From positions 2,108,001 to 2,172,000 of the forward strand of contig NC_020506.1 of NCBI RefSeq assembly GCF_000344785.1: 64,000 nt of DNA, in the 5' to 3' direction. Shown here in pieces: positions 29,866 through 37,362 of this stretch (position 1 is its first letter; each line of letters begins with the position of its first letter). The notes under the pieces were generated by a model, which was not told the origin of the DNA, ran no database searches, and saw only the letters and a list, made by a program, of their open reading frames with translations. Source of the DNA: Corynebacterium callunae DSM 20147. Lineage in GTDB: Bacteria; Actinomycetota; Actinomycetes; Mycobacteriales; Mycobacteriaceae. The position numbers and the translations under genes are program-made.

Positions 29866-29958
29866 AGAAATCCCCTTCCACCAACGCTAATTTCACATAG
29901 ATAATACTGCTAATATGCTACTGGCGCAGAGTGGAAGGGGAAATTCCTAAAGGTGCAG

Positions 29959-35198: not shown

Positions 35199-35427
35199 AA
35201 GTCGGTGTCACTCCTGATCAAAAACTAATGCGAGCGCCCGTTCACCTATGAAATTTTAAGTGCGTTTGGTCCGAGCGCCAAGGTTCTTCGATCCTACCAG
35301 TGACAATGCCTTCTTGAATAACCGAAAATTTCCCTGTGGTACCCAGTATTTTGTCTGCCTTAGCAAAAAGGTGACAATAGGGGAGAATAAATTTCATATC
35401 GAGGACGAAGGGACACCGCCAATCGCC

Positions 35428-37362
35428 GTGACAATTTCAACTGAACCCCGGGTAAAACACCCGGTAGATCAGGTGCCTCCAGCGCCAAAACTAGCAGCTT
35501 TAGGGCTGCAGCATGTGCTTGCTTTTTATGCAGGCGCGGTTATTGTGCCACTGCTTATTGCACAGTCACTAAACCTTGATACCGCAACCACAATCCATCT
35601 TATTAATGCCGATCTGCTTACTTGTGGCATCGCAACACTAATTCAGTCGGTGGGACTAGGCCGCCACATTGGTGTGCGTTTGCCCATTGTCCAGGGTGTT
35701 ACCACCACGGCGGTAGCTCCAATTATCGCCATTGGTTTGGGTGTTACTGATGGCGCCGGCGGAGTTGCAGCACTGCCTGCCATTTATGGCGCTGTCATCA
35801 TTTCCGGTATTTTCACCTTCTTCGCAGCTCCTGTTTTTGCGCGCTTCCTGAAGTTTTTCCCACCAGTTGTCACCGGCACGGTGCTTTTGGTTATGGGTAC
35901 TTCCCTGCTTTCGGTGTCTGCAAATGACTTTGTGAACTATGCAGAATCCACCCCTGCAGCCCGTGATTTGGCCTATGGTTTTGGCACCTTGGCTGTTATC
36001 ATTTTGGCGCAGCGTTTCTTGCGCGGTTTCTTGGCCACCCTCGCGGTGCTTATTGGTTTGGTAGGCGGCACCGCAGTAGCTGTGCTACTTGGCGATGCAA
36101 ACTTAGACAACGTCGGTACCGCTGAAGCTTTTGATGTCACTACGCCTTTCTATTTTGGCGTTCCAGAGTTTAATGCCGTGGCCATTTTCTCCATGATCAT
36201 CGTCATGATCATCACCATGGTTGAGACCACTGGTGACGTATTTGCCACGGGGGAAATCGTCGGCAAGCGTACTCGCCGTGATGACGTCACGCGCGCCCTG
36301 CGCGCAGATGGCCTGTCCACCTTTATTGGTGGTGTGATGAACTCTTTCCCTTATACCTGCTTCGCTCAGAACGTCGGCCTGGTGCGCATTACCAACGTGA
36401 AGTCACGCTGGGTGGCTGCAGCCGCTGCGGTATTTATGATTATTTTGGGCGTGCTACCTAAGGCTGGTGCCATCGTTGCATCCATCCCCTCCCCAGTGTT
36501 GGGTGGCGCCTCGCTTGCCTTGTTTGCCAACGTGGCCTGGGTGGGTATTCAAACCATCGCTAAGTCTGATCTGCGCGATGGACGCAATTCCGTCATTGTT
36601 ACTTCCGCACTGGGACTCGCAATGCTAGTTTCTTTCCGCCCTGAGGTTGCGCAGGCTTTCCCAGAGTGGGCTCAGATTTTTGTCTCCTCCGGAATGTCCG
36701 TGGGTGCCATTACTGCCATTATGCTTAACCTGCTGTTTTTCCATGTAGGCAAGCAAACCGGCGGCAATATTGCGACTTCTAAGTCCGGTGAGCACCTCAG
36801 CCTGGAGGCCGTAAACCAGATGAATCGCCAGACATTTGTTGATACCTTTGCATCTCTGTTCAACAGCAAGACCTGGCCGCTGGAAACTGCTTGGGAGTCA
36901 CGTCCTTTTGCCAATGTCACGGAGCTGCGCGAGGCTATTCAGATTGCTGTTCTTACCGCTCCTGCCCAGGACCGCGAAGAACTTATCCGCGATTATCCCG
37001 ATATGGCTCAGCTGCTGCTGGCCTCTGAGGAAGAAGCTGCGCTGATTTCCCAGGACCGTGGATCCCTTGGCCTCGTCGAGCTAGACGATGTGGACCGCGA
37101 AAAGCTGTTAACTGTCACCGCACAGTACCGTGAGCGTTTTGGGATGCCTTATGTGGCGTATTTTGACACCATGGACACCGTTGATTCGGTGGTTACCGCC
37201 GGTCTGCGCCGTCTGGATAACTCCAATGAGCAGGAGCACCGCCAGGCTTTGTCAGAGATCATTGAGATCGCCAATGATCGCTTTGATATGTTGCTGGCCG
37301 ATGCCAACCCCGCGCGCACGGCCTTTGACCGCAAGTTCACCGATACCGATTTCATGAACTAA
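35428..37362 (+). CDS. NCS2 purine-type permease fused to an OHCU-decarboxylase-like domain
   Basis: A 644-aa fusion. Residues about 20-445 form a 12-14 segment NCS2 nucleobase symporter with HPVDQVPPAPKLAALGLQH, IVQGVTTTAVAP, ETTGDVFATGEI and AQNVGLVRITNVKSR, typical of xanthine/urate carriers. Residues about 458-635 match OHCU decarboxylase, the last step of urate to allantoin. In that domain the usual catalytic HP dipeptide is YP (IRDYPDMA, near residue 520), and the loop that usually carries a Glu-Gln pair reads SQDRGSLGL, so activity is doubtful. The start is uncertain (GTG 35428, 35371 or 35260); 35428 gives the family N-terminus. Confidence 0.85.
   Translation: MTISTEPRVKHPVDQVPPAPKLAALGLQHVLAFYAGAVIVPLLIAQSLNLDTATTIHLINADLLTCGIATLIQSVGLGRHIGVRLPIVQGVTTTAVAPIIAIGLGVTDGAGGVAALPAIYGAVIISGIFTFFAAPVFARFLKFFPPVVTGTVLLVMGTSLLSVSANDFVNYAESTPAARDLAYGFGTLAVIILAQRFLRGFLATLAVLIGLVGGTAVAVLLGDANLDNVGTAEAFDVTTPFYFGVPEFNAVAIFSMIIVMIITMVETTGDVFATGEIVGKRTRRDDVTRALRADGLSTFIGGVMNSFPYTCFAQNVGLVRITNVKSRWVAAAAAVFMIILGVLPKAGAIVASIPSPVLGGASLALFANVAWVGIQTIAKSDLRDGRNSVIVTSALGLAMLVSFRPEVAQAFPEWAQIFVSSGMSVGAITAIMLNLLFFHVGKQTGGNIATSKSGEHLSLEAVNQMNRQTFVDTFASLFNSKTWPLETAWESRPFANVTELREAIQIAVLTAPAQDREELIRDYPDMAQLLLASEEEAALISQDRGSLGLVELDDVDREKLLTVTAQYRERFGMPYVAYFDTMDTVDSVVTAGLRRLDNSNEQEHRQALSEIIEIANDRFDMLLADANPARTAFDRKFTDTDFMN

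Follow-up and report, generated by a model that had tools for sequence, protein, structure and literature searches.

A purine permease of Corynebacterium callunae fused to an OHCU-decarboxylase-like domain, probably a regulator or stabiliser built into the importer rather than an enzyme

The NCS2/NAT purine carriers PbuX, PucJ and PucK of B. subtilis, XanQ and UacT of E. coli and UapA of A. nidulans end shortly after their last helices, and the end of an NCS2 carrier lies in the cytosol. The SLC26/SulP carriers have a cytosolic C-terminal STAS domain, which is not of OHCU-decarboxylase fold, and such STAS domains regulate SLC26 carriers. OHCU decarboxylases are dimers. NCS2 proteins probably function as homodimers, as stated in passages of PMC6308229. 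In M. smegmatis the genes msmeg_1293 (xanthine/uracil permease), msmeg_1294 (OHCU decarboxylase), msmeg_1295 (transthyretin) and msmeg_1296 (uricase) stand in this order and are all induced under nitrogen limitation, according to passages of PMC4617892. Passages of PMC4222082 add that nitrogen starvation raises msmeg_1293 about 15-fold, an effect that depends on GlnR, and that uric acid supports GlnR-dependent growth of M. smegmatis, GlnR binding upstream of msmeg_1293 not having been detected. By its gene order, msmeg_1293 may itself carry an OHCU-like domain.

The gene considered here comes from C. callunae and lies in a window of 64,000 nucleotides (the whole stretch of DNA that was analysed, within which positions are counted). 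Its parts are as follows.

35428..37362, + strand: NCS2 permease fused to a pseudo-OHCU-decarboxylase, 644 residues from GTG 35428
35488..36645, + strand: NCS2 (Xan_ur_permease) domain, residues 21-406, by Pfam, TIGR03173 (pbuX) and a UraA/UapA fold
36739..36816, + strand: linker (residues 438-463, approximately), variable and the part that evolves fastest, with low pLDDT at 442-444
36814..37284, + strand: OHCU-decarboxylase-like domain, residues 463-619, by Pfam and predicted fold
36994..36996, + strand: Tyr523, which replaces the catalytic His (His67 of 2o70), by alignment
37054..37059, + strand: Asp543-Arg544, which replace Glu87-Gln88, by alignment; a low-confidence loop in the models
37279..37281, + strand: Arg618, the equivalent of Arg161, by alignment; of 139 fused domains 138 have this Arg and one has a gap

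The frame is open from a GTG at 35260 to the stop at 37360-37362, and the GTG at 35428, which fits the conserved part, is a plausible start. An earlier note on this DNA had read the product as an NCS2 carrier joined to a C-terminal OHCU-like domain, and this reading holds: both Pfam models score above their cut-offs within a single open frame, Xan_ur_permease at 315.2 bits (cut-off 27) and OHCU_decarbox at 112.9 bits (cut-off 24, 2.6e-32). The fused architecture recurs in 174 ORFs from the 235 loci that we examined (some of these loci overlap or repeat a genome), which is far beyond chance, and it is already visible to Pfam and RefSeq. An artefact of one genome is ruled out as well, the fusion being present in 68 of 201 Corynebacterium genomes.

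The permease half reaches 469.8 bits on TIGR03173 (pbuX; cut-off 414.15) and 354.9 bits on TIGR00801 (cut-off 291.8). A full-length model predicted from 55 sequences, the C. callunae fusion and 54 other fused proteins, has a mean pLDDT of 85 and a pTM of 0.70, and the best Foldseek matches of its membrane part are UraA, SVCT1 and UapA (E 2.2e-19 to 6.0e-18), SLC26 carriers matching more weakly. Going by the pbuX model and by the urate genes near its relatives, the carrier would be a cation-coupled NCS2 purine permease of the xanthine/urate type; the genome holds three NCS2 genes above the Pfam cut-off, the fusion included. Since NCS2 carriers end in the cytosol, the fused domain should face the cytoplasm.

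A separate model of the C-terminal domain, predicted from 22 fused sequences, has a mean pLDDT of 88, and its top matches by Foldseek and VIA-align are OHCU decarboxylases and an allantoin synthase. Against the zebrafish OHCU decarboxylase 2o70 it superposes with Z 20.2 and an rmsd of 2.2 A over 164 of 172 residues at 22% identity; other chains reach Z 4.4 or less. The alignment and this fold match rule out that the domain is unrelated to OHCU decarboxylase. Relative to 2o70, His67 has become Tyr, Ser84 has become Ile and Glu87-Gln88 have become Asp-Arg, with Arg161 kept. We take His67, Ser84 and Glu87-Gln88 to be active-site residues of 2o70, His67 being the catalytic one, and Arg161 to be a ligand-binding residue of OHCU decarboxylase. 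The alignment thus confirms what had been noticed from the letters, that the usual catalytic His-Pro is here Tyr-Pro and that the Glu-Gln pair is not obvious; the former Glu-Gln stretch is also the least confident region within the domain in both models. No His aligns at the catalytic position, neither in the C. callunae domain nor in the surveyed fusions. Loss of the catalytic His would be expected to abolish OHCU decarboxylase activity; our literature search on this point found no paper. On the OHCU decarboxylase equivalog TIGR03164 the domain scores 82 bits, under the cut-off of 96.25, and this is a weak test of function because five of six other His-less fusions exceed the cut-off (L161, L182, L136, L109 and L131, with 101.3-132.2 bits; L040, with 72.7, is below).

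How often do the fusion and the change of the histidine occur together, as the earlier note had asked? Our survey set covers 235 loci of Actinomycetota, whose 174 NCS2-fused ORFs and 142 others reduce to 139 and 124 distinct domains; its profile was built from fused sequences. A scan of genome contigs with a single sequence gave 10 loci, and of 169 matching plasmid records 30 were listed and two examined. At position 67 the 139 fused domains have Tyr in 97 cases, Phe in 42 and His in none, while 119 of the 124 unfused copies have His. Of the five unfused rows that lack it, L233, L234 and L235 are partial or degenerate copies, L224 is part of a fusion cut by a contig edge, and L100 comes from a fusion whose frame is broken. 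The survey profile having been derived from fused sequences, we used the Pfam model for a second search of the phylum as a control; it matches 72 of 396 genomes. The control rows stem from 30 loci of this search, 20 long-frame regions, two plasmid records and the C. callunae gene; many of these rows overlap those of the main survey, and five genomes are represented twice. Among them, 50 of the 51 OHCU rows with no in-frame NCS2 keep both His-Pro and Glu-Gln (the exception, L283, is a partial match), and all seven NCS2-fused rows have Tyr or Phe. Many other control rows with an intact OHCU domain are long open frames, some perhaps shadow extensions, which makes them weaker controls. Two uricase fusions (L263, L266) keep His-Pro and Glu-Gln, which speaks against fusion as such being the cause of the loss, and we rejected the idea that it is a by-product of any fusion. 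The loss of His goes with fusion to the permease, and the view of the domain as a degenerate enzyme is strongly supported. In one family (code f18), a 643-aa frame at L182:9172-11174 (also L181, L183) has an intact OHCU decarboxylase at its end and overlaps a 493-aa NCS2 match in another frame; its first 480 residues are probably a shadow frame, in which case the NCS2 gene and the OHCU gene after it are both unfused.

The losses fall mainly in the active-site columns. We counted columns over 122 of the 124 unfused rows and called a column invariant if it exceeded 85% in all 122 and 90% in the 23 of family code f18. Nine of the 14 columns so defined are kept in the fused class (N7, P37, P68, Y111, F115, R138, E146, I157 and R161), and the five that change are H67, S84, E87, Q88 and L162, the last from Leu to Phe in most fused domains. 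Position 45, variable in the enzymes, is Arg in 99% of fused domains. Ser84 and the Glu-Gln pair, too, are lost in most of the 139 fused domains: Ser remains at position 84 in 10; at position 87, 108 have Asp and 8 have Glu; at position 88, 61 have Arg, 59 have His and 4 have Gln. In the fusion of Rubrobacter radiotolerans His67 has become Tyr and nothing else is lost, Ser84, Glu87, Gln88 and Arg161 being intact. As some fused domains keep Glu, Gln or Ser, and this one keeps all but the His, residual or altered chemistry may occur in some of them.

One could go further and suppose an altered enzyme, whose pocket carries out another reaction on a purine or ureide brought in by the carrier, using the Tyr or Phe together with the new conserved residues Arg45 and Phe162. 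The kept pocket Arg, the near-invariance of Arg45 and the Glu or Gln still present in some fused domains would all suit such an enzyme. We nevertheless regard it as improbable, since the key position tolerates both Tyr and Phe, since positions 84, 87 and 88 differ between lineages, and since neither uricase nor HIU hydrolase stands beside any of 51 Corynebacterium fusion loci. The earlier note's suggestion of an altered enzyme that channels an imported purine product is further weakened by the fall of the losses in active-site columns and by the 55 Corynebacterium genomes that keep the domain and have no unfused OHCU decarboxylase, HIU hydrolase or PF01014 uricase. Because the catalytic His is replaced by Tyr or Phe, a role other than catalysis is probable.

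A domain with its catalytic residues gone might also be the decaying relic of a former bifunctional permease-enzyme, and three of the 68 Corynebacterium fusion genes do look frame-broken. We estimated dN/dS by the Nei-Gojobori method with our own script for 11 chosen pairs of corynebacterial fusions, saturated pairs giving no value; because many dS values exceed 1, the ratios are rough. They are 0.027-0.079 for the domain (9 computable pairs), 0.011-0.044 for the NCS2 carrier (10 pairs) and 0.078-0.333 for the linker (10 pairs), which is the fastest part in every pair with values. The domain is thus under strong purifying selection, close to that on the carrier. For the pairs compared, such selection already contradicts a relic; the Arg newly invariant at position 45 and the wide retention of the domain also speak against decay, which we consider the least credible of all the explanations and very improbable indeed.

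What, then, is the domain kept for? In Corynebacterium, PF09349 is found in 74 of 201 genomes, 68 with the fusion and six with only unfused copies. Among the 68, one fusion is frame-broken, one is a piece at a contig edge and two have an interrupted carrier half. The reading frame is interrupted at L100 (G043), L059 (G174) and L046 (G182), by real loss or by assembly error. Uricase PF01014 was found in none of the 201 genomes and HIU hydrolase in 19, of which 13 are among the 68, so that 55 of the 68 fusion-bearing genomes have neither HIU hydrolase nor an unfused OHCU decarboxylase. The 51 corynebacterial fusion loci counted above include four genomes twice; a single one of them has an OHCU match nearby, and this is a fragment of its own broken fusion (L100). 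In C. callunae, where the earlier note had seen no other uricolytic gene near the fusion, genome-wide profile searches agree: PF09349 matches the fusion ORF only, uricase PF01014, HIU hydrolase PF00576, xdhA TIGR02963 and PuuD PF06181 gave no hit, and HpxO NF033623 reaches at best 114.5 of 500 bits, under its cut-off. These alternative urate oxidases, HpxO and PuuD, were sought in 20 genomes. In the 19 Corynebacterium genomes with HIU hydrolase (for example L085 of G030 and L096 of G147) there is also an unfused copy of OHCU decarboxylase, in many cases close to an NCS2 gene that is unfused as well; in these genomes, too, we found no uricase PF01014 and no PuuD PF06181, and HpxO reaches at best 196.1 of 500 bits.

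The neighbourhood of the corynebacterial gene gives no hint of a pathway either. Clustering the neighbours of Corynebacterium fusions yields locus-specific neighbours only, with no purine link among those clustered: in one clade a PFL-like enzyme, a radical-SAM protein and an RNase PH-like protein, in another clade ORFs that match two ORFs of the C. callunae window, presumably obg and proB. Allowing at most one mismatch, a search for the corynebacterial AmtR-type consensus found 7 sites in the window where 11.55 are expected; those closest to the fusion gene lie at 29887 and 43140, so that none is near it. Because the domain is kept in Corynebacterium in the absence of the urate pathway, it most likely serves the transporter itself.

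Outside Corynebacterium the setting is different. The same GTDB family yielded 62 further fusions, 45 of which have enough flank for counts of context (the loci used are L031-L100, L159-L197 and L199-L236; L001-L030 and L101-L158 have too little flank). Beside these 45 stand an unfused OHCU decarboxylase in 41 cases, HIU hydrolase in 38 and uricase in 32, all lower bounds, as some loci span only about 4.5 kb. The corresponding counts are 7, 7 and 7 of 8 in family code f18, 2, 1 and 1 of 2 in f20, and one of one for each enzyme in f6; three Actinomycetaceae fusion loci have no unfused OHCU decarboxylase, HIU hydrolase or uricase alongside. By Pfam, OHCU decarboxylase and HIU hydrolase follow the fusion at L159, uricase and PucR are present at L161, and uricase and HIU hydrolase at L182. 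On the Rhodococcus qingshengii plasmid NZ_AP023173.1 a 637-aa 'solute carrier family 23 protein' with Phe-Pro and Asp-His is followed in order by uraD, with His and Glu-Gln intact, uraH and pucL. The frequent presence of a true OHCU decarboxylase next door (41 of 45) would fit a docking platform, the dead domain recruiting that enzyme and HIU hydrolase to the carrier in a urate metabolon. This could have been the original role outside Corynebacterium; as a general explanation it seems to us a shade less probable even than altered catalysis, for the domain is conserved in the 55 of 68 Corynebacterium genomes that have neither partner enzyme.

The trees suggest how the fusion came about. Trees of the domain were built from 71 of the 263 distinct rows and 2o70, chosen for less than 66% identity within a class and at least 130 residues, leaving out L224 and L100 as pieces of cut or broken fusions. 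With the active-site columns omitted, the 30 fused domains fall on one side of a single branch and the 42 others on the other (UFBoot/SH-aLRT 100/89). The carrier tree likewise separates 28 fused from 23 unfused NCS2 domains by one branch (100/99); L240 and L241 (badly aligned, from the C. callunae genome) and L088 (a long row) were left out, and the grouping is the same with them. Under a midpoint root, the only rooting used, the fused domains lie nearest to enzymes with an intact active site, of which one belongs to family code f59 and many belong to f18; L134, an f18 enzyme, scores 201.6 bits on TIGR03164. The unfused OHCU enzymes of Corynebacterium sit on a long branch far from the fused domains and are not likely to be their source. 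That the R. radiotolerans fusion has changed at His67 only suggests an order in which the His-to-aromatic change came first and the Glu-Gln loop eroded later.

The residues of the chemistry are lost, the other invariant columns and the Arg are kept, an aromatic residue and Arg45 are gained, and the pathway is absent; together this points to a job done for the carrier. Rather than acting as an enzyme, the OHCU-like domain probably regulates or stabilises the importer into which it is built. More specifically, our favoured reading, which we find an evenly balanced call, is that the catalytically dead domain regulates the carrier to which it is attached: a purine or ureide would bind in the former active-site pocket, and transport would be set accordingly. 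In such a scheme the domain would no longer decarboxylate OHCU, the ligand would most simply be the very purine that is imported, and its effect on transport activity would probably run through the carrier homodimer; the model for this gating is the cytosolic STAS domain of SLC26 carriers, which share the fold. Of the two functional guesses in the earlier note, a sensor and an altered enzyme, the sensor fits best, gating and binding themselves being what we infer. The main rival is purely structural, a dimerisation or stability clamp for the carrier that needs no ligand. It would account for the loss of catalytic residues with other invariant columns kept and for the persistence of the domain where the pathway is missing, and it would suit carriers that are probably homodimers, as NCS2 proteins are (PMC6308229 as above). 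OHCU decarboxylases are dimers too. However, a pure clamp would need no Arg161, which all but one of the fused domains keep, unless that Arg is structural, and selection constrains the domain nearly as tightly as the carrier; we hold the clamp to be unlikely, if well ahead of the other alternatives. Returning to the regulatory module, a broader proposal, which we advance somewhat more tentatively, is that in a class of purine carriers of Actinomycetota an enzyme of the urate pathway became a cytosolic purine/ureide sensor and now gates uptake, that this arose once with the His-to-aromatic change as founding event, and that it outlived the pathway in Corynebacterium.

If true, a transporter would here have a pseudoenzyme as its allosteric domain. 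The clean rule seen in the fusions surveyed, that permease fusion means no catalytic His, makes it testable whether an enzyme fold was taken up here for regulation, and in this carrier fold the cytosolic tails are known to be important. We found no description of the fusion or of the dead active site in the literature searched, which covered few subscription papers, and passages of papers on NCS2 carriers (PMC6308229) and on transporter tails (PMC6597760) mention no such domain. There is also a practical side. The 665-aa R. radiotolerans fusion RRADSPS_RS14675 (L238:5624-7621) is named uraD in its record, likely an annotation error, and automatic naming of such permeases as 'uraD' would wrongly complete urate pathways in models.

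Among known systems, the M. smegmatis cluster msmeg_1293-1296 shares its gene order with many fusion loci, whereas the Corynebacterium fusion gene stands alone. The SLC26/SulP carriers have a similar carrier fold, as the weaker Foldseek matches indicate, and a C-terminal domain of another fold, which makes the comparison a functional analogy only. With the NCS2/NAT permeases of B. subtilis, E. coli and A. nidulans the fusion shares a TIGR03173 score above cut-off and the UraA/UapA fold, and it differs from them by about 180 extra cytosolic residues, predicted to be a folded pseudoenzyme. Finally, the fused domain resembles OHCU decarboxylase (UraD; 2o70, 3o7h, 2q37) and allantoin synthase (5z5m) in its fold and in nine of 14 invariant columns, Arg161 included; unlike OHCU decarboxylase, it has neither the catalytic His nor the Glu-Gln pair, is fused to a carrier and is kept where the pathway is gone.
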